A program made the position numbers and the translations under genes. Positions 11,924 through 47,582 of a stretch of DNA of 64,000 bases are shown here, piece by piece. Below the pieces are notes generated by a model. That model was given only the letters and a program-made list of their open reading frames with translations. It was not told the origin of the DNA and did no database searches. Source of the DNA: Salinarchaeum sp. Harcht-Bsk1 (GTDB taxonomy: Archaea; Halobacteriota; Halobacteria; Halobacteriales; Salinarchaeaceae); the NCBI RefSeq assembly GCF_000403645.1, contig NC_021313.1, positions 1,879,014 through 1,943,013 of the forward strand, given 5' to 3'. The first letter of the stretch is position 1, and each line of letters starts with the position of its first letter.

Positions 11924-13333
11924 CTAGATAATCCGGTCTGTGACGAGCCCTGGTGAACGCCCGGTAACCCTTTCGTACAATTGCATCGCCTGTTGTTCAG
12001 TCATACTTGCGATGACATCAGCAACCAGCCGGGCACGGATTGTCCCCGCGTCAATATCACTATATCCGAGCTCCCCTTCATGAAGCATTGATATTTTCTC
12101 ATCAAAGGGATCTGGAATCATATCGGCGTACATGCTGTTCTCCGCAGAGGCCTCATACAGCGTATCATATAGCTCTTTTATCAACTTCGTATGCCCGTGC
12201 TGCTGGGCCACGAGGGCTGGATTTTCAAAAACATAGTATTTACACAGAAATTGGAGTAGCTTGACCTCATAAATGAGTGACTCTTCAATTTCTAGCCCAC
12301 CGGCTATGGACGGATCAATACGAAATGTCGTGTCTGAATTGCGGCCCAAGTACCTTTCAATGAGTTCGGAACTCATGAAGCTAAGCGCAGCAATATTTTT
12401 ACTAGATCCACTATATCTACCTTCCAAGAGACCGCTTGACCCCCCGCGATTGCTACCTTCCTGTTCCGCGATATCGGCTAGTTTTGGCAGTGAATTTGAT
12501 AGGAAGGATACTGCATCCCATGTTCCCACATCTACGTCACTCCAATCTTCAAATGCATCAATCAATTTAGCTTGTTCTTGTGTCTCCCTTGTGAGTTCTC
12601 CCAAAGGGATCAGCCCGGATTTATAGAAGTCTACTACGTCGTGAATCGCATAGGTTAGATCGTCTGCCCAATCCATTATTTTTGCCTCCAGACTTTTTGT
12701 CTCGGAACCACTGCCCGGCGTCCGGAGTTGTCTTACATCATCAACAATATGTTGCTCCGTTGAATAGTACCCCCACTTTTTACTTCGGTGCCCTGCTGTT
12801 TCTCTCTTCCAAGGATATTTTAAAATCGCATTAAGGCTCGCCAATGTTAGATCAAGTCCACTATGAGTGCTCCCGTATGGTGTGTGATGAATCGCGATAT
12901 TATTCACAATCCGGAATGATTGCGGGTTGCCCTCAAAACTATCTGGAATTCCCTCTCTGTCTAGCTTATCACGAAGTGCTTGCTCCGCTGCATGACCGAA
13001 GGGTGGATGGCCGAGATCATGAGCAAGGCAGGCTGTCTCGACTACATCCTCATCCAGACCACCTGCTTCTTCAATAACTGTCTCATCCGTATCATCAATG
13101 AGTAATTCTGCCAACCTCCGCCCCACCTGAGAAACCTTTAACGAATGTGTTAATCGATTGTGGTAGCCTCGTTCTGTGCTAACATGCACAACTTGTGCCA
13201 CTCCGGCCAGGCGGCGAAATGCAGGGGTATAGAGCACCCGGTCTCTATCTCGCTGAAATGGCGTACGGTTGTCGCCATCAGCACTTCCTGATACTATCCT
13301 TGTCTTTCTAAGTACCTCGTTATCCGGCGGCAT
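11924..13333 (-). CDS. HD-domain dGTPase-like triphosphohydrolase
   Basis: 469 aa, dNTP triphosphohydrolase family (Dgt/SAMHD1-type). The metal-binding HD signature is intact: His63 (NRLTHSLKV), His105-Asp106 (AHDLGHPPFGH) and a later Asp (IMDWADDLTYA, about 209). Expected activity is hydrolysis of dGTP or other dNTPs to nucleoside plus triphosphate. Base composition and codon choice (ATA, AAT, TTT, AGT) are far more AT-rich than any neighbour, indicating acquisition by transfer. It lies 15 nt downstream of a small gene on the same strand, likely one operon. Bacterial dGTPases can restrict phage by depleting nucleotides; an antiviral role here is inference. Confidence 0.88.
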   Translation of the reverse strand: MPPDNEVLRKTRIVSGSADGDNRTPFQRDRDRVLYTPAFRRLAGVAQVVHVSTERGYHNRLTHSLKVSQVGRRLAELLIDDTDETVIEEAGGLDEDVVETACLAHDLGHPPFGHAAEQALRDKLDREGIPDSFEGNPQSFRIVNNIAIHHTPYGSTHSGLDLTLASLNAILKYPWKRETAGHRSKKWGYYSTEQHIVDDVRQLRTPGSGSETKSLEAKIMDWADDLTYAIHDVVDFYKSGLIPLGELTRETQEQAKLIDAFEDWSDVDVGTWDAVSFLSNSLPKLADIAEQEGSNRGGSSGLLEGRYSGSSKNIAALSFMSSELIERYLGRNSDTTFRIDPSIAGGLEIEESLIYEVKLLQFLCKYYVFENPALVAQQHGHTKLIKELYDTLYEASAENSMYADMIPDPFDEKISMLHEGELGYSDIDAGTIRARLVADVIASMTEQQAMQLYERVTGRSPGLVTDRII

Positions 13334-13348
13334 AGAAATCGCGAGAAG

Positions 13349-13543
13349 CTATTCTTCAACCTGAAGTTCCCACTCTACAGTGTAGGAAACCTCGTCATCC
13401 TGCATTAGATTTCGGAGTGCGTTTAATAGCCTTTGGCGGCTCATGTCTGGCTCCATAACCGCCACAAAATCGTCCTGGTCCACAGGCTCTCTGCTACGGA
13501 GTTCCCTTTTCACACGCTCTTCTATGGGTTCGGTAGTTGCCAT
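13349..13543 (-). CDS. Small protein, first gene of the dGTPase operon
   Basis: 64 aa, acidic. It contains a helical stretch (EERVKRELRSREPVDQDDFVAVM) and then MSRQRLLNALRNLMQDDEVSYTVEWELQVEE. The latter reads like the recognition helix plus beta-wing of a small winged-helix domain, although that is only a visual guess. It shares the AT-rich composition of the downstream dGTPase gene (15-nt gap). It could regulate or partner the hydrolase. No family recognised. Confidence 0.65.
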   Translation of the reverse strand: MATTEPIEERVKRELRSREPVDQDDFVAVMEPDMSRQRLLNALRNLMQDDEVSYTVEWELQVEE

Positions 13544-13797
13544 CTGATTGAGTGTCCATCTTCCTGGGCAAAATAGCTTTGGCCAATTTACAATATTATG
13601 TGGTTTCTCGATGTGCTATATCTTGGTGGCATATAACTGGTTTCTCTGGCAGGCATCTAATCTATATTCTTGTTTTCTCGGAGGATGTTAACTCTGGATA
13701 TCACGGACACTGTTTGTTCCAGGCATAGTAGATTATGCAACGTTCTCCGAAGTGGGCTGATTCGAAACCTGTAGATTGGGGTGCAACAGCCGCCGCG
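13544..13797. other. AT-rich intergenic segment at the right edge of the dGTPase cassette
   Basis: About 190 nt (13550-13745) are clearly AT-rich, and the composition then switches abruptly to the GC-rich background near 13780, before the pheT stop codon at 13798. I see no ORF of useful size, tRNA, inverted terminal repeat or convincing direct repeat to mark an integration site. A T/A-rich box at 13568-13577 serves the cassette on the minus strand. Confidence 0.6.
13568..13577 (-). promoter_or_regulatory. Putative TATA box of the dGTPase cassette
   Basis: Read on the minus strand the box is GCTATTTTG, centred about 29-30 nt upstream of ATG 13543. That spacing gives a leaderless or near-leaderless transcript for the small gene and the dGTPase. 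The surrounding DNA is AT-rich, so the match is less specific than elsewhere. Confidence 0.4.
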
Positions 13798-15660
13798 CTA
13801 CGCCAGCGCGTCCCGGCGTAGCTCGAACGCGGCGACCGGCACTTCGAGGTCGTGCTCGACGAGGACCGCGGGATCGACTTCGCCGATCACGCCCGCGACC
13901 TCGCCGTCGACGACGACGTCGGCGACACGGCCGTCGAGGAAGCTCGGATGCTCGGTCGCTGGCGTCTCCAGTTCGACGTCGAACGCCGACGCGAGCGCCT
14001 GGAGCCGTCCGCGGGCGTCCTCGTAGGAGGCGTCGTGGCGTGCGACGACCGCGGCGACGGAGCGATGTTCCGCGACGCCGGTCGGCTCCGTCGGGTCGAC
14101 CTGCGCGACGAAGCCGACCTCCGCGAGGTCCTGTGGGTACTCCCGGTGGGTGTTGCCTTCGAGCACCTGTAGGAGCGATGGGAGCGCCCACGTCCGGAGC
14201 ACGGTGTAATCCTCGCTGTAGGCGGTCGCGATGGTGGGCGCCGGGGCGAAGCCGACGGCATCGTCGGCGACCTCGCGATCCGCGTGCTCGCCAGCGTGGC
14301 CCGAAATCTCCATCTCCTCGGCCTGGAGGTCGACGTGGCCGACCTCGGGGATGGGGAGACCCATCCGCCCGAACGTCTCGGCCTCGTTGGTCATGTGGAA
14401 GTTCAGCATGTCCTCGAAGCCGACGCCGACGAGCGTATCGCGGACCGCGCGCTCGTGCCGGGAGCGCTCGTGGCGGCCGCCGAGCGTCGAGACGTCGGGG
14501 TAGCTCGCGTCGAGTTCGTTGAAGCCATAGGCGCGGCCGACGTCGTCGATCAGGTCCTGGGCGTGGAGCACGTCGACGCGGTAGGCCGGGATCGCGACCT
14601 CGTACCCGGCCGCCACGTCGCCCTCCTCGCCAGCGTCGCCACGCTGGAGTTCGATCTGTTCGGCGTCCAGGCCGGACCGCTCCAGCAGGTCGAGCACCTC
14701 GTCGGGATCGAAGTCGACGCCGACGACGGACTCGACGCGCTCGTGGGCGACGGTCTTGCGATCGAGCGAGAGGTCGGGCCGCTCGATCGTGGTGCCGGCG
14801 TACTCGCCGCCGGCGTCGTCCGCGTAGCTGACGTCGACGGCCTCGATCGTCGCGCCGCGGGCGTCCATCGCGTAGCAGAGGATCGCGAGCATCCGGTCGA
14901 TCGTCCACTGGTCGGTGCCGGTCATCTCGACGAAGAGGTTCCGGCTCTCGGCGGTGACCTCCGTCCGGCGGCCGTTGATCGCCGGCGGGAAGGAGAAGAG
15001 GCCGAGGTCGTCGTAGATCGCGGGCATCCGCTCGTACTCCGCGACCAGGTCGGCGTACTCGCTGGCCATGTGGTGGGACTCGAGCGCCTCGCCGGGGGTC
15101 ATCTCCCGGTCGCTCTCGAGGGGGACGAACGTGTCGCCGTCGGGCGCGATACCGGTGTAGCGGACCGAGTTGTTCGGTTCGGCGGCGTCCTCTTCGTCCG
15201 TCGGACCCACGGCGCCCTTGAGCATCGTGAGGTCGTGGACGCCGATGGCGCCCTTCGCACGACCGCGGCCCATCGTCGCGTGAAGCTTCTCCTGCAACTG
15301 GATCAGCGACTCGAGCGCGTCCTCGTCGAGGTTCACGTCCCGGAGCACCGCACCGGTGACGTAGGGCCGCTCGTCGGGCACGTCGCTGTCGACCTCGATC
15401 GTCCAGTCGGGATCGGTCACGCTCGGCACGTACGCGCCGCGATCGTCGCCGTACTGGTAGCGCAGGGAGCGGGCGATCCCCTCGACGGAGAGGCGGTCGA
15501 GGCGGTCCGGCGCGAACTCGAGTTCGAGGTCGCCGTCCTCGGTCTTCCCCTCGAGTTCGAGACCGAGCGCGAACAGGTCGTCGATCAGTTCGTCCTCGGG
15601 CTTGTCCTCGTGGCCGGCGAGCGTCAGCAGTTCGTCGGTATCGATCTCGACGACGGGCAT
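13798..15660 (-). CDS. pheT: Phenylalanyl-tRNA synthetase beta subunit
   Basis: 620 aa, archaeal-type PheT. It pairs with PheS in a heterotetramer that charges tRNA-Phe. The N-terminal MPVVEIDTDELLTLAGHEDKPEDELIDDLFALGLELEG segment, the B3/B4 editing region (IGVHDLTMLKG...SRNLFVEMTGTDQWTIDRML), the B5 domain (about 285-390) and the catalytic-like module (DLIDDVGRAYGFNEL onward) are in order. There is no C-terminal anticodon-binding FDX domain, as expected for archaea. ATG 15660 overlaps the pheS stop (ATGA), so translation is coupled. Confidence 0.96.
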   Translation of the reverse strand: MPVVEIDTDELLTLAGHEDKPEDELIDDLFALGLELEGKTEDGDLELEFAPDRLDRLSVEGIARSLRYQYGDDRGAYVPSVTDPDWTIEVDSDVPDERPYVTGAVLRDVNLDEDALESLIQLQEKLHATMGRGRAKGAIGVHDLTMLKGAVGPTDEEDAAEPNNSVRYTGIAPDGDTFVPLESDREMTPGEALESHHMASEYADLVAEYERMPAIYDDLGLFSFPPAINGRRTEVTAESRNLFVEMTGTDQWTIDRMLAILCYAMDARGATIEAVDVSYADDAGGEYAGTTIERPDLSLDRKTVAHERVESVVGVDFDPDEVLDLLERSGLDAEQIELQRGDAGEEGDVAAGYEVAIPAYRVDVLHAQDLIDDVGRAYGFNELDASYPDVSTLGGRHERSRHERAVRDTLVGVGFEDMLNFHMTNEAETFGRMGLPIPEVGHVDLQAEEMEISGHAGEHADREVADDAVGFAPAPTIATAYSEDYTVLRTWALPSLLQVLEGNTHREYPQDLAEVGFVAQVDPTEPTGVAEHRSVAAVVARHDASYEDARGRLQALASAFDVELETPATEHPSFLDGRVADVVVDGEVAGVIGEVDPAVLVEHDLEVPVAAFELRRDALA

Positions 15661-30932: not shown

Positions 30933-31358
30933 ATGCAGGTCCGCGACGCCGTCGAGGACGACGCGGCGGCGATGGCGGCGATCGCCGACGCACCACAGGA
31001 CGTGATGCGGAATCTCGTCCACGACCGGACGGTGCGTGTCGCCGAACCCGACATCGTCGACGACGACCCCAACGAAGACGCCGGCGCCCGCGATCCCCAG
31101 CTCCTCGGCTTCGTGAGCTTCGACGCGAGGCAGGACGCCGTCCACGTCACCCAGCTCGACGGGACGGACGAGGCCTGCGAGCTTCTCCTCTCCGAGCCCG
31201 TCCGCTTCGCCGAGCGGGAGTCGATGGCCGTCGAGTTGCTCGTGTCGGAGGCACAGGACGGCGTGGCGGACGCGGCTCGGAACCAGGGCTTCGCCGACGT
31301 CGGACCCGGCCCGCGCTTCGAGGGCGTGCCAACGACGCGATATCGGCTGGAGCCGTAA
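30933..31358 (+). CDS. GNAT-like acetyltransferase-fold protein
   Basis: 141 aa. Opens MQVRDAVEDDAAAMAAIADAP, the usual beta-1/alpha-1 of GNAT N-acetyltransferases. It continues with a beta-strand region (LLGFVSFDARQDAVHVTQLDG) and ends in AARNQGFADVGPGPRFEGVPTTRYRLEP, which mimics the last strands of the fold. The acetyl-CoA pyrophosphate loop (R/QxxGxG/A) is not visible, so activity is uncertain. CTTTTATTCG about 27 nt upstream supports ATG 30933 and a leaderless mRNA. Confidence 0.72.
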   Translation: MQVRDAVEDDAAAMAAIADAPQDVMRNLVHDRTVRVAEPDIVDDDPNEDAGARDPQLLGFVSFDARQDAVHVTQLDGTDEACELLLSEPVRFAERESMAVELLVSEAQDGVADAARNQGFADVGPGPRFEGVPTTRYRLEP

Positions 31359-31442
31359 TCCCGTCGCGCTCGCTTCTTCGCACCCCTCCTGCTCACTCCA
31401 CGGCCGGGTATCGACGGCTTTCAGTCCAGGTGCCGACGGCAT

Positions 31443-32102
31443 TCAGTCGCCGAGCAGCGACCCGAGCGAGCGCGAACGGACGCCGCAGCTCTCGGCGTAC
31501 TCGCAGGGCTCGCACTTGGCGTCGTTCTCGATCCTGCTCGGCGGACCGTCGAGTTCCGCGGCCGCCCGCAACGCCGACCTGTACTGCGATTTCCGCCGGG
31601 TCGTCAGCTCCACCGATCGGATCACGCCGTGGGTGGGGTACTCGACGATCGCCGATTCGACCGGCCGCTGGCGCTCCCACGCCAGGGCCTTCGCCGCGGC
31701 GACGGCCTGCACGGAGTGGGGTTCCCACACACCGGTCGGGGGCGGGTCGCCCGGCGAGACGATCGCGGGCCGCGGCGGATCGCCCACGAGCTTGTGCGCG
31801 ATGCCGCGAGCCTCCTTCCCCGTCAGGAGGACGTTACGCGCGATCGGATCGACGACGTCCGGCCAGCAGTCGAGTCGCTCGCGGGTCCGCTGGAGCGTCC
31901 TGCGGTACGTCGGCGGTGGTTTCTCGATCGGTAGCTCCCGCAACGTCGCGTCGTCAGCCGCCAGCAACTCGGGATAGCAGGTCGCGAGGTCCCGACGCTC
32001 GGTGACGACTTCCGGCGGCGAGCGATCCGGCTCCCGTCGGCGGTAGTACAGTTTTCGGGGGCAGTATGCGGCGACGCGGAGGTCGCTGAACGCGACGGAC
32101 AT
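31443..32102 (-). CDS. Stand-alone Cas4-like (PD-(D/E)XK/Dna2-type) protein, catalytic motifs unclear
   Basis: 219 aa. The N-terminus SVAFSDLRVAAYCPRKLYYRRR and C-terminus SRIENDAKCEPCEYAESCG carry the one-plus-three cysteine pattern (Cys14, then three Cys near 203-212) that binds Fe-S in Cas4/Dna2-like nucleases. The final strands (VIRSVELTTRRKSQYRSALRAA) also fit. The central nuclease signature (D...ExK) is not clearly present; the matching region reads GDPPPTGVWEPHSVQAVAAAKALAWE. There is no CRISPR array or other cas gene in the window, so it is not a CRISPR adaptation locus. It may be a degenerate repair nuclease. Confidence 0.75.
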   Translation of the reverse strand: MSVAFSDLRVAAYCPRKLYYRRREPDRSPPEVVTERRDLATCYPELLAADDATLRELPIEKPPPTYRRTLQRTRERLDCWPDVVDPIARNVLLTGKEARGIAHKLVGDPPRPAIVSPGDPPPTGVWEPHSVQAVAAAKALAWERQRPVESAIVEYPTHGVIRSVELTTRRKSQYRSALRAAAELDGPPSRIENDAKCEPCEYAESCGVRSRSLGSLLGD

Positions 32103-32253
32103 GGACCGCGTTCGCCGCGGAATCGGGCATAAAGCTGTGGCCGGTGCTGCTCCAGTGCGGTTGCGACAGTGGTGCGGGAGCGGTGACGATCCCAGCAGCA
32201 CTGCACTGCGAGCGGCCGAGCGACCGGCGGGAGCGAGGTCGACTCGCGGCCTT

Positions 32254-32338
32254 TTTTTGGTCCAGATTTTTGGAGGAGGGTTCCCGCAGGTCGATCTTTG
32301 ATCGACCGAGGAAACCCTCCTCGAAAAAAGGTGGGTTA
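32254..32338 (-). terminator. 3' element (copy A) downstream of the Cmi4-like gene: T-run, stem-loops, A-rich tail
   Basis: Read on the minus strand from the stop codon: TAA, CACCTTTTTTC, a 10-bp stem GAGGAGGGTT/AACCCTCCTC enclosing an apical stem GGTCGATC-AAA-GATCGACC, then AAAAATCTGGACCAAAAA. The T-run 8 nt after the stop is a normal archaeal terminator. The rest is shared with the element that follows phoU at 63490, with the apical stem changed but still paired. It could be a structured 3' UTR or processed RNA. Confidence 0.65.
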
Positions 32339-32941
32339 GAACGACACGTCCGTCTCCATCCCTTCTGTCGCGTCGTCGAGACCGTCCTGCCTGGCCTCCT
32401 GCGTGAGGGGGCCGGCCAGATCGGCGTCGCCGAGGATGGAGTCGAACTCGTCGCGATAGCGGTCGTTCGCACGGCGCGATTCGTCCTGGGCCTCGACCAC
32501 GCGGCGATAGCGCCGGACGGTCGACTCGCTGACGTCGAACTCGTCGGCGAGATCACTCGTGGCGACGTCCTCGCCGCCGCTGGTAACGCGCTTGCGGAAC
32601 GCCTCGACGTCGAAGGGCGCGTCGAGGTCGCGCTCGCGCACGAGGTGGAGGTCGAGACGAGCGCGGAAGACGGTACGTCGTTCGACGTCGAGTTCGCGGG
32701 CGAGGTCGGCGTCGCTCGCGCCGTCGTAGAAGCTCACGGCGAGCTCGCAGAGCTGACCGTCGGTCAGCTCGGTCTCGAAGTCGTACCGGTCGCGCATCTC
32801 GGCGACGAGGTCGGCGAGGCGCTCTCGTGCCGCCTCGTCGTCGGTGAGGGACCCCTTGGTGGCGGCCTGGGACTCGGTGACGGTGTCGGAGTCCGTGACG
32901 TCCATGAAGATGTCGCGGAGCTCCTCCGTTTTCTCGTCCAT
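32336..32941 (-). CDS. Conditioned medium-induced protein 4-like regulator (two HTH segments)
   Basis: 201 aa, acidic, no cysteine. It opens MDEKTEELRDIFMDVTDSDTVTESQ, which I associate with the haloarchaeal family annotated 'conditioned medium-induced protein 4'; the name is from memory and the mechanism is unknown. Two helix-turn-helix-like segments are visible: GASDADLARELDVERRTVFRARLDL (about 73-97) and VATSDLADEFDVSESTVRRYRRVVEAQ (about 125-151). That suggests a DNA-binding regulator. A TATA box (ACATATAC on the minus strand, 32971-32978) lies about 30 nt upstream, with repeated GGCAGA motifs above it. Confidence 0.8.
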   Translation of the reverse strand: MDEKTEELRDIFMDVTDSDTVTESQAATKGSLTDDEAARERLADLVAEMRDRYDFETELTDGQLCELAVSFYDGASDADLARELDVERRTVFRARLDLHLVRERDLDAPFDVEAFRKRVTSGGEDVATSDLADEFDVSESTVRRYRRVVEAQDESRRANDRYRDEFDSILGDADLAGPLTQEARQDGLDDATEGMETDVSF

Positions 32942-32970
32942 GGGCTACCCAGTCGTCTACGCCCCGCGAC

Positions 32971-33057
32971 GTATATGTCTTCTGCCATTGCCGGAACGCC
33001 TGCTGGTGGTTTCTGCCCACGAGTGGGGATATCTGCCCGAACGCAGTACTGTCTGCC
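32971..33057 (-). promoter_or_regulatory. Promoter of the Cmi4-like gene with four GGCAGA direct repeats
   Basis: TATA-like ACATATAC at 32971-32978 (minus strand). Directly upstream, GGCAGA (TCTGCC on plus) occurs at 32981-32986, 33012-33017, 33032-33037 and 33052-33057. The last three are exactly 20 bp apart, about two helical turns. Such phased direct repeats next to a TATA/BRE are plausible binding sites for a regulator on one DNA face. Confidence 0.5.
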
Positions 33058-33136
33058 ATTTCCGTCGGCGGGTCGCTGCCCCTCGAACCACGGCCGAGAG
33101 ACCGGAAGGCTGATCCTACCCGTCGACCCGGCGGAT

Positions 33137-35479
33137 TCAGTCGCCGTTCGCGTCCTCGCGCGCGTCCTCCAGCCCCAGCGCCTCGACGAGCAGTTCCGCG
33201 ACGTCGACGACGTCCAGGTCGTCCTCGAAGCCGCCGGTCTTGCGGCCGTCCTCGAACATCGTGGTACAGAGCGGGCACGCGACGACGAACTTCTCGACGG
33301 CGTCGCCAGCGGCCGTGTCCTGGTTCGCCTCCCGTAGCCGTTCCTCGCTGGGCTTGGTCTCCTCGTCGTGCTCGGTCCACACGCCGCCGCCCCCGCCGCC
33401 ACAGCAGAAGGAATCGGAGCGATTGCGCGGCATCTCGTGCAGGTCGCAACCCGCGGCGGTCAGCAGGTCCCGCGGCGGTTCGTAGACGCCGTTGTATCGC
33501 CCGAGGTGGCACGGGTCGTGGAAGGTGACGGTGTAGTCGAGTTCGTCGCCGGCGAGGCCGAGGTCGCCGCGCGCCTGGAGGTCGGCGAGCACCTGCGTCC
33601 AGTGTTTCACGTCGATTTCGCCGTCGGCGTTCCACTGCTCGTCGAACTCGAAGGGCATCACGGGGTCGTCCGCGAACTCGCCGAAGTCGACCTCCGGGTA
33701 CTCGTTCTTGATCGTGTTGAACGAGTGCGGGTCGGTGCAGACGATGGTCTCGAACTCGCAGTCCTCGAAGGTCTCGACGTGGTGGCCCGCGAGTTCGAGG
33801 AAGAGGAACTCCTCGCCGATCCGCCGGACGTCGTTGCCGTCCATCTTCTCGTCGTCGTAGACGATCCCCCAGTCGACGCCGGCTTCGTCGAAGAGTTTCG
33901 CGAGCGAGCGAGCGACCTGCTTGTTCCGATCGTCGTAGCTCGGGAAGTCGCCGACGTACCAGAGGAACTCGACGGACTCCTCGCGGGCGTCGGTCGGCTC
34001 GAGGTCGAGTGGATCCGCCCAGTCCGCGCGCTTGGACTGGGACTCGCCGAAGCTGTTGCCCTTCTGCATCACGTCCTGGAAGACGTCCTGGACGTTGGGA
34101 TCGACCGCGCCCTCGTCGACGAGCTGCCGGTTCATCCGCGTGAAGGAGGTGAGGTGCTCGATCTCGACCGGGCAGGCGTCCATGCAGGCCATGCAGGCCA
34201 TACAGGACTCCATGGCGTCCCTGTCGATGACGGCGTCGTCCTCGTCGGGCTCGACCGGCTCTCGGTTGGTCCCGGCCGTGGTCGGGGAGGCGTGCTCGGG
34301 AATCCCGGGTTCGGGGTCGCCGGTCGCTCCACCGGCGTCAGCGGTGGCGGCTCCACCGTCCGTCATCGTTCCCCCGTCCGCCATCGTCCCGCCATCAGCC
34401 CGGAGCCCGTCGAACTCCCCGACGATCGGGCGCTCCGGGCCGCCATCCTCCAGCGACTCGCGGTAGTTCTTGAGGTCGAGGATCACGTTCCGGGGATCGA
34501 GCGGCCTGCCGGAGGCGTTCGCGGGACAGACCGAGGAACAGCGACCGCAGTTCGTGCAGGCGTCCTGATCGAGCTGTTCCTTCCAGGTGAAGTGGTCGAC
34601 GTCCGTGGCGTTCTCGTGGTCGAGGTCCGCCGGAATGCCGGGGAGGCGGGCACCCGCCTCGTCGTCCTGCGCGACGACGTTCGCGAACGAGGAGAGCATG
34701 TGGAACGCCTTGAAGTAGGGAATCAGCGCGATGAACGCCAGCGCGTGGAAGGCGTGGATCCACCAGACGGCGGGGTAGATCGTGGCGGCGTCCTCGGCGG
34801 TGAGGCCGGCGCCCTCGAAGGCCAGCGCGAGCCCGTAGCCGACGAAGCTCACGACCTCGAAGTCGGGAACGCCACGGCCGAGGATCCCCAGCGCTTCGAG
34901 GAGGAAGCCGCCGACGCCGAGGACGAACAGCGTCCAGACGAAGGCGTCGTCGGCGACGGAGACGCGGGGGCCCCAGAGCCGCTCGGAGCGGATCCAGTAG
35001 CGGCGATACATCGCCATTGCGACGCCGACGACGAACAGGAGGCCCATCGCGTCCATCACGACCTCGTAAGCGCGGTAGAAGTCGCCGGTCCAGAAGGAGG
35101 TGTCCATGAGGGGCTGGATCACGTCCATGTCGATCGCGAGAATCGAAGTGCCGACGAAGAGGGTGAGAAAGCCCCAGAGGAGGAAGGTGTGCATCACGCC
35201 GGCGTAGGGATCCCGATCGAACAGGGGTGCGTTCGAGCCGATGTCGGTCACGGCGCGACGGATTCGCCCGGGGAGATTCGCGAGGCGGTCCCGCGGATCC
35301 TCCCGCCCTCGAGTCCAGCGGCTGACGCGGAGGTAGACGCCGCGCACGAAGATCCCGATCGCGATCGCCGCGAGCAGGTAGAAGAGGATCTCCCCGACGT
35401 GGCTGATCTCGAAGAAGGTCGGCCGCGTCACGTCGTCGCCGGACTGCAAGACCGCCGTTCCCGCCGCCCAGAATGTCAT
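33137..35479 (-). CDS. Membrane-anchored heterodisulfide reductase-like Fe-S oxidoreductase
   Basis: 780 aa fusion. Residues 1-about 275 contain five or six transmembrane helices like the NarI/DsrM cytochrome-b-type subunit. Two ferredoxin-like 4Fe-4S motifs follow: CTNCGRCSSVCPANASG (about 305) and CMACMACMDACPVEI (about 430), separated by a low-complexity acidic linker. The C-terminal half is an HdrD/GlpC-type CCG domain (CHLGRYNG...CCGGGGGGVW and CPLCTTM). It probably passes electrons between a soluble donor and the quinone pool. No methanogen Hdr genes are nearby; the substrate is unknown. Confidence 0.9.
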   Translation of the reverse strand: MTFWAAGTAVLQSGDDVTRPTFFEISHVGEILFYLLAAIAIGIFVRGVYLRVSRWTRGREDPRDRLANLPGRIRRAVTDIGSNAPLFDRDPYAGVMHTFLLWGFLTLFVGTSILAIDMDVIQPLMDTSFWTGDFYRAYEVVMDAMGLLFVVGVAMAMYRRYWIRSERLWGPRVSVADDAFVWTLFVLGVGGFLLEALGILGRGVPDFEVVSFVGYGLALAFEGAGLTAEDAATIYPAVWWIHAFHALAFIALIPYFKAFHMLSSFANVVAQDDEAGARLPGIPADLDHENATDVDHFTWKEQLDQDACTNCGRCSSVCPANASGRPLDPRNVILDLKNYRESLEDGGPERPIVGEFDGLRADGGTMADGGTMTDGGAATADAGGATGDPEPGIPEHASPTTAGTNREPVEPDEDDAVIDRDAMESCMACMACMDACPVEIEHLTSFTRMNRQLVDEGAVDPNVQDVFQDVMQKGNSFGESQSKRADWADPLDLEPTDAREESVEFLWYVGDFPSYDDRNKQVARSLAKLFDEAGVDWGIVYDDEKMDGNDVRRIGEEFLFLELAGHHVETFEDCEFETIVCTDPHSFNTIKNEYPEVDFGEFADDPVMPFEFDEQWNADGEIDVKHWTQVLADLQARGDLGLAGDELDYTVTFHDPCHLGRYNGVYEPPRDLLTAAGCDLHEMPRNRSDSFCCGGGGGGVWTEHDEETKPSEERLREANQDTAAGDAVEKFVVACPLCTTMFEDGRKTGGFEDDLDVVDVAELLVEALGLEDAREDANGD

Positions 35480-35568
35480 GGTTTGACACCTGCGGCGGCA
35501 CGGCTTAAAAGTTCGCCCTGACGGCCACCCACCCCGCCACCATCGTGCGATAATTTACAACTGGTTTT

Positions 35569-35636
35569 GAGTTCCCTCAGCTTTGGGCGTCGAGTTCCCC
35601 CGGTTCTGGGTGTCGAGTTTCCCTGGTTGGGTCTTC
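35569..35636. repeat. 23-nt tandem repeat, three units
   Basis: Units start at 35569, 35592 and 35615, each opening GAGTT(C/T)CC and ending in a GGG(C/T)(G/C/T)TC-like segment. A partial fourth match (CTGGTTTTGAGTT) precedes them. The array ends 23 nt from the moaB stop codon, in the gap before the Fe-S oxidoreductase gene. The unit length is not a multiple of three, and no frame runs through it cleanly. Confidence 0.6.
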
Positions 35637-35659
35637 TCCCGGATCGACCGCGGCGCGCC

Positions 35660-36355
35660 TCACTCCTCCTCGATGTCGTGGGGTCTGGACAGCCCGGCGA
35701 GGTGACCGACCTCCGGTTCGACGACCTCGGCCGTGCCGGTTCGCGCCGCCGACTCGCTCCCGGGCAGGCAGAACACGGGAACGCCGTCGGCGATCCCCGC
35801 GAGCGCCCGGGTGCCGACGACGCGCGTGCCGATCTCCTCGCGGGATTTCGCCCGGAACAGCTCCCCGAACCCCGGCAGTTCCTTCTCGAAGAGCGGCCGG
35901 ACGGCCTCGGGCGTGACGTCCGCCGGCGCGACGCCGGTCCCACCGGTCGTGACCACGGCGTCGACGTCCTTGCGATTCACGAGAGCGCTCACCGCCGACT
36001 GGACGCCGTCGTAGTCGTCGTTCACGAGTTCGCGAGTCGCGATTTCGTGCCCCTCGCCTTCCAGCACTTCGACGATCGCGTCGCCCGAGGCGTCGTCGTC
36101 GATCGAGCGGGAGGTCGAGACCGTGAGGACAGCGGCCGAGACGGTCTCGAGGTCGTCGGCGTGGTGATCGTGGTCGGCGTGTTCGCTGCCGTGGTCATGT
36201 TCATCCTCGGCTGGGTCGTCGTCCCCCGTTTCGCTCGATCCGTCGGACGAGGGGTCCTCCCCGGTCGTCTCATCTGGATCGTCGGCGTCGTCCCGGTCCT
36301 CGCTCTCGTCGCCGCCGAGCGAGCGCCGGGTGTCCCGGGATTGAAAGTCGACCAT
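35660..36355 (-). CDS. moaB: Molybdenum cofactor biosynthesis protein MoaB
   Basis: 231 aa. The C-terminal about 165 residues are a MoaB/MogA molybdopterin-adenylation domain: [21 protein letters not shown], the [33 protein letters not shown] motif and [13 protein letters not shown]. The N-terminal about 65 residues are a low-complexity acidic extension containing a His-rich run ([18 protein letters not shown]), which could bind divalent metal. ATG 36355 is the first plausible start; the frame upstream is a shadow of the prepilin peptidase gene. Acts in molybdopterin cofactor synthesis. Confidence 0.93.
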
Positions 36356-47442: not shown

Positions 47443-47582
47443 GAGCTATCGTCGTCGTCGTGGAGTTGCAATCGTGGCGGAGCTACTGTCGTCGCGGAAT
47501 TGCAGTCGTCGCGGAATTGCAGTCGTCGCGGAATTGCAGTCGTCGGGAAGCCGCAGTCTTCGGGAAGCCGCAGTCGTCGCGG
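47443..47582. repeat. 17-nt minisatellite-like array, about eight units
   Basis: Starts 6 nt after the stop at 47437. Regular 17-nt units occur at 47463, 47480, 47497, 47514, then 47531 (16 nt), 47547 and 47564. The unit consensus is GAATTGCAGTCGTCGCG, identical at 47497 and 47514. The first unit (47443) is 20 nt. There are no spacers, so it is not CRISPR. The rest of the gap to 47765 shows nothing clear. In the sense direction it would lie in the 3' flank of the RNase H-like gene. Confidence 0.7.

Follow-up and report, generated by a model that had tools for sequence, protein, structure and literature searches.

In Salinarchaeum sp. Harcht-Bsk1, a gene encoding a conserved protein with two predicted helix-turn-helix (HTH) units, here called the cmi4-like gene, is preceded by four copies of the hexamer GGCAGA, and on balance we favour reading this region as an ordinary promoter whose upstream hexamers are not conserved. 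A haloarchaeal BRE/TATA promoter of the usual kind would drive the gene, and the distance from TATA to ATG suggests that its mRNA is nearly leaderless. The hexamer closest to the gene lies at the BRE position, where orthologues have an element of the RRCAGR or CRACAG type, and may be kept there for contact with TFB or for an overlapping factor. The stretch further upstream would have changed after the neighbouring Fe-S gene had been inverted in the genus, in that order, and for the three copies that it carries a conserved regulatory role is unlikely.

The hexamer array and its rarity

The window, i.e. the whole stretch of 64,000 nucleotides that was analysed, carries GGCAGA four times on its minus strand (TCTGCC on the plus strand) in the region upstream of the cmi4-like gene. 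The ATG of this gene is at 32941, and the intergenic region that separates it from the Fe-S gene measures 195 bp. The features referred to below are as follows.

32336..32941, minus strand: cmi4-like gene, 201 aa, two predicted HTH units (Pfam, AlphaFold2)
32972..32978, minus strand: TATA-like box ACATATA; the proximal GGCAGA is followed by AG and then by ACATATA
32981..32986, minus strand: GGCAGA copy 4, the proximal one; it occupies the BRE position and matches the RRCAGR of orthologue promoters
33012..33017, minus strand: GGCAGA copy 3
33032..33037, minus strand: GGCAGA copy 2
33052..33057, minus strand: GGCAGA copy 1 (distal)
33137..35479, minus strand: Fe-S oxidoreductase gene (CCG and 4Fe-4S domains), upstream of cmi4 and co-oriented with it
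31443-32105: Cas4-like gene (Pfam DUF83/Cas4), directly downstream of cmi4

The earlier note had described four direct copies, three of them at 20-bp spacing, which end beside the TATA box; both coordinates and spacings were confirmed, the starts of the copies being 31, 20 and 20 bp apart. Spacings of 20, 20 and 31 bp are near whole helical turns, as an operator would show, and this counts against an ordinary promoter. The 14-bp spacers between copies are mutually dissimilar as judged by eye, so the array is no obvious tandem duplication; an origin by tandem duplication was rejected by eye because the spacers do not match. A search of window positions 31000-36000 against Rfam for an RNA element gave no match at the gathering threshold.

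In phased direct-repeat operators, a short box recurs unchanged every two helical turns ahead of a core promoter. The window has identical short boxes in the same arrangement; it differs from such operators in that its boxes are not conserved in the relatives examined, show no excess of pairs in the genome and are candidate sites only. A young operator, specific to the species or the genus, is the alternative that fares best, and we consider it possible though clearly short of probable. Here GGCAGA-type boxes on the same face of the DNA, with two helical turns from one to the next, would be bound by a regulator. As the last of them would overlap the BRE, the regulator, once bound, would either block or help TFB/TBP. 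The exact phasing speaks for it, as do the dissimilar spacers and the rarity of the array in shuffled sequence: when the 195-bp intergenic region was shuffled 20,000 times with its dinucleotides preserved, no shuffle held a hexamer four times together with three equally spaced copies. Intact hexamers amid dissimilar spacers, with this count of 0 in 20,000, are a further point against the ordinary promoter. In the same shuffles, some hexamer occurred four times in 40, four copies fell inside 82 bp in 5, and three copies were equally spaced in 8; GGCAGA itself occurred four times in none of another 20,000 dinucleotide shuffles of the region.

Since GGCAGA had been chosen after looking, the test for any hexamer was also applied to real stretches and set against the shuffles. 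It was passed by 7 distinct stretches among 236 called noncoding, the array's own included (59.6 kb from the window and 79 loci, delimited by naive ORF calls, so that some may be coding), and this speaks against an operator. One tandem array of the window is among the other stretches that passed, and the stretch at locus L060 looks like one. The array is thus rare for GGCAGA, but only mildly unusual once the hexamer may be chosen freely.

Searches of whole genomes also argue against an operator. Of 392 genomes of the order, 3 have exact GGCAGA triplets at 20 bp (7 matches, those outside the window being perfect 20-bp tandem repeats), whereas 6 have the reversed control of the pattern (10 matches). 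The pair pattern is not in excess: the genome of the species has six matches, two of them in the array, and the reversed control also has six, so a regulon that shares the array was rejected. One of the four matches elsewhere in the genome straddles the end of an ORF and two lie inside apparent coding ORFs. A literature search found no paper joining GGCAGA and haloarchaea.

Related promoters and gene order

We compared the 200 bp upstream of the gene with those of 79 relatives from named genomes, whose loci were picked out with peptide patterns rather than sampled at random, and of 15 further relatives; all 95 sequences, including that of the window, are distinct. Of the 94 orthologue promoters, 5 have a single GGCAGA on the gene strand and 89 have none there; on the opposite strand, one copy is found in 7 of the 94. 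At least two exact copies within 200 bp occur in none of the 94, and the array is likewise absent from all of them, which weighs against an operator. The earlier note had named conservation upstream of orthologues as a check on its proposal, and the array failed this check, with no exact copy in the congener and no orthologue promoter having two.

The single congener compared (L002) encodes a protein 91-92% identical to that of the window, and exact GGCAGA is absent from its promoter; that just one congener was compared counts against the ordinary-promoter reading. When the two promoters were aligned with the first setting, the boxes kept 4, 5, 4 and 5 of their 6 bases, from distal to proximal. 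Identical bases then amount to 18/24 in boxes and 38/53 in spacers (11/14, 10/14 and 17/25), and as these values are alike, the boxes have been preserved no better than the spacers, contrary to what an operator would lead one to expect. A third setting leaves 4, 6, 1 and 5 of 6 bases of the boxes identical. The congener's counterpart of copy 2 is the one-mismatch hexamer GCCAGA and that of proximal copy 4 is TGCAGA, while the 14-mer GCAGAAGACATATA around the TATA-like box is identical in both species.

The congener's promoter contains four hexamers with one mismatch to GGCAGA, at -96, -63, -46 and -21, two of which align with copies 2 and 4. With these it ranks second to the window, which has five hexamers within one mismatch; two of the 93 other promoters have three and the rest at most two. 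This rank favours a young operator and counts against an ordinary promoter, and a loose cluster of such hexamers at genus level is possible; the congener's copies are, however, at other spacings than those of the window. Among the species examined, the exact array and its phasing were found in that of the window alone. As no relative examined has such an array, a local quirk is likelier than a conserved cell-density switch.

Gene order sets the genus apart as well. The Fe-S gene is divergent from cmi4 in 65 of the 66 loci in which it was seen, out of the 79 loci of relatives, and within these 66 loci and the window it is co-oriented with cmi4 only in the congener and in the window; these neighbour counts use 3-kb flanks, and flank limits and contig ends hide some genes. 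The upstream part of the array lies where the Fe-S gene is inverted in the genus Salinarchaeum. This different upstream neighbour may explain why the promoter has little likeness to those of other orthologues.

The element at the BRE position

The proximal GGCAGA is the sole copy of the array located where relatives keep a similar element. A total of 35 orthologue promoters out of the 94 have RRCAGR 25-62 bp ahead of the ATG, with 4.8 expected from shuffles, a contrast that is overstated, as are the Fisher contrasts, because the orthologues share descent; copies of RRCAGR further upstream number 7, with 12.7 expected. The element is over-represented, while adjacent genes and surrounding sequence turn over. 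Among the 48 of 80 promoters that matched a list of TATA words, the TATA position being picked by a simple score, 31 have [GA]ACA at the BRE position, as compared with 3 of 30 control promoters, which rest on naive ORF calls. The fourth place of the element is C in 31 cmi4 promoters and another letter in 7, as compared with C in 2 and another letter in 20 of the control intergenic strands, which likewise depend on naive ORF calls (p 4.7e-08, with relatedness ignored).

Across species, then, a TATA-like box is kept together with a BRE-type element immediately before it. The haloarchaeal promoter proposed in the available part of PMC4983044 has CGAAA as BRE and TTWT as TATA. The region studied here resembles it in that a TATA-like box precedes the ATG by 31-37 bp and has a BRE-like element directly upstream of it; it differs in that cmi4 promoters prefer RACA(G) over GAAA, the window having CAGAAG.

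How closely the element is tied to cmi4 can be gauged in a genus of 18 genomes centred on genome G057. The 15-mer SRACAGRTTTTTATA occurs there eight times, in eight genomes, every time at the cmi4 promoter, and is absent from the other 10 of the 18; its variants with a letter other than C occur once in the same genomes, not at cmi4. When the TATA part was relaxed, 11 of 31 places were at cmi4 (reversed control: 12 places). The relaxed variants without C were at cmi4 in 0 of 106 places, a weak comparison because the reversed control gave 87 and most of the 106 matches are probably due to chance. The element is favoured by cmi4, yet not exclusive to it, and the proximal copy is best read as the form that it takes in this species.

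A bolder proposal is that RACAG/RRCAGR at the BRE position is an operator that competes with TFB, perhaps for Cmi4, and that it has been multiplied here into a phased array of four sites. We regard this as doubtful. If it were true, the array would turn a conserved autoregulatory switch into a graded or cooperative one. In any case the element at the BRE position is the better lead, as it offers a definite site for probing autoregulation or a special TFB/TBP pairing; the upstream repeats, in the role claimed for them, matter little, as they follow no conserved rule.

The encoded protein, its name and its neighbourhood

Of 293 genomes searched in the order, 282 have a member of the cmi4-like family, and the species' own genome has one match. 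The two HTH-like segments that the earlier note had seen in the protein are borne out by the AlphaFold2 model (mean pLDDT 83.3, pTM 0.70), which predicts a leading helix, three-helix HTH units at residues 61-97 and 112-157 and a last helix at 161-186, with low confidence at both ends (residues 1-30 and 171 onwards; blocks of at most 61). In the second HTH, Pfam HTH_23 matches with an E-value of 8e-07, and HTH_11 is also above the cut-off. These Pfam matches are to general HTH-type models, and no NCBIfam model matches the protein at its cut-off. The predicted fold is of the HTH kind expected of a site-specific transcription factor, for which operator binding is putative. A fold search of the PDB with the model gave no match at E <= 0.001, the VIA-align hits (best Z-score 6.4) were for the most part HTH proteins and sigma factors and uninformative, and a sequence search of solved structures gave no confident relative (best E 0.047).

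Seventeen residues are invariant in 49 sequences, namely 11 within residues 1-30 together with G187, L188, D77, R95, H99 and L100. The last four lie in or flank the first HTH, the second HTH being largely variable in these sequences, and 13 of the 17 fall in the N- and C-terminal tails of low confidence.

The earlier note had called the gene Cmi4-like, and public annotation does use the family name: a plasmid homologue from Halomarina (WP_254538888.1; 37.0% identity, E 2e-19, 84% of the query) is annotated as 'conditioned medium-induced protein 4', which makes the name plausible. Homology to a protein that bears the Cmi4 name is thereby established; this protein is a plasmid paralogue, as distinct from the Hf. 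volcanii gene, and its function is putative. Seven Cmi4 homologues lie on plasmids of Haladaptatus, Halococcus and Halomarina; five are named 'response regulator receiver protein', one is hypothetical and one bears the Cmi4 name. The Pfam matches listed for the cmi4 family (22 in one set, 25 of 47 in another) include no receiver domain, so the label 'response regulator receiver protein' may be wrong.

Of four papers in the collection searched that contain the word cmi4, three deal with other subjects, to judge by their titles; the fourth, PMC3462420, states in the available part that the Hf. volcanii gene has been disrupted in a pyrE2 strain. Literature searches found no paper on a density role of cmi4 or on its induction by conditioned medium, and none for 'conditioned medium-induced protein'; 'cmi' is absent from the main text, in the part available, of a 2025 paper on quorum sensing in Hf. 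volcanii (PMC12240190). The density role proposed for the cmi4-like gene derives from a name, and a quorum input has no support in this analysis.

Autoregulation tied to cell density, with the GGCAGA boxes of the promoter bound by the Cmi4-like protein itself, is very improbable: the two predicted HTH units, the homologue's name, the over-representation of proximal RRCAGR at cmi4 promoters and the invariance of D77, R95, H99 and L100, which is compatible with a fixed DNA site, have to be set against a protein found in nearly all genomes of the order and an array found in no other promoter, a second HTH that varies, invariant residues that mostly lie in low-confidence tails, and a density role that the literature search did not find. 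As the exact array is not conserved in orthologues, the earlier proposal that the repeats are an operator for autoregulation or a quorum-like input goes unsupported.

On the downstream side, the Cas4-like gene follows cmi4 in 49 of the 79 loci. On the upstream side, a bioY gene is divergent from cmi4 in 35 of the 79. An inverted repeat, CGTCAACC...GGTTGAC/GGTTTAC, was found about 80-120 bp upstream of cmi4 in 16 of the 79 loci (L005, L008, L009, L011 and L012 among them). It was set aside as a cmi4 operator, since it adjoins the start of the divergent BioY-family gene, an assignment that Pfam confirmed for L009, and since it resembles a BirA box. This likeness at a BioY-family promoter makes it a candidate haloarchaeal biotin operator; no title on such an operator was among the literature matches listed.

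Two other parts of the window stand out. A tandem array with a 17-bp unit and 7.6 copies lies at 47454-47582, just past the end of a 251-aa ORF. The block at 12001-14000 has a GC content of 0.496, as compared with 0.639-0.708 in the other 2-kb blocks, and was perhaps acquired; the ORF at 11924-13333 (minus strand) in this stretch encodes HD and HD_assoc domains.
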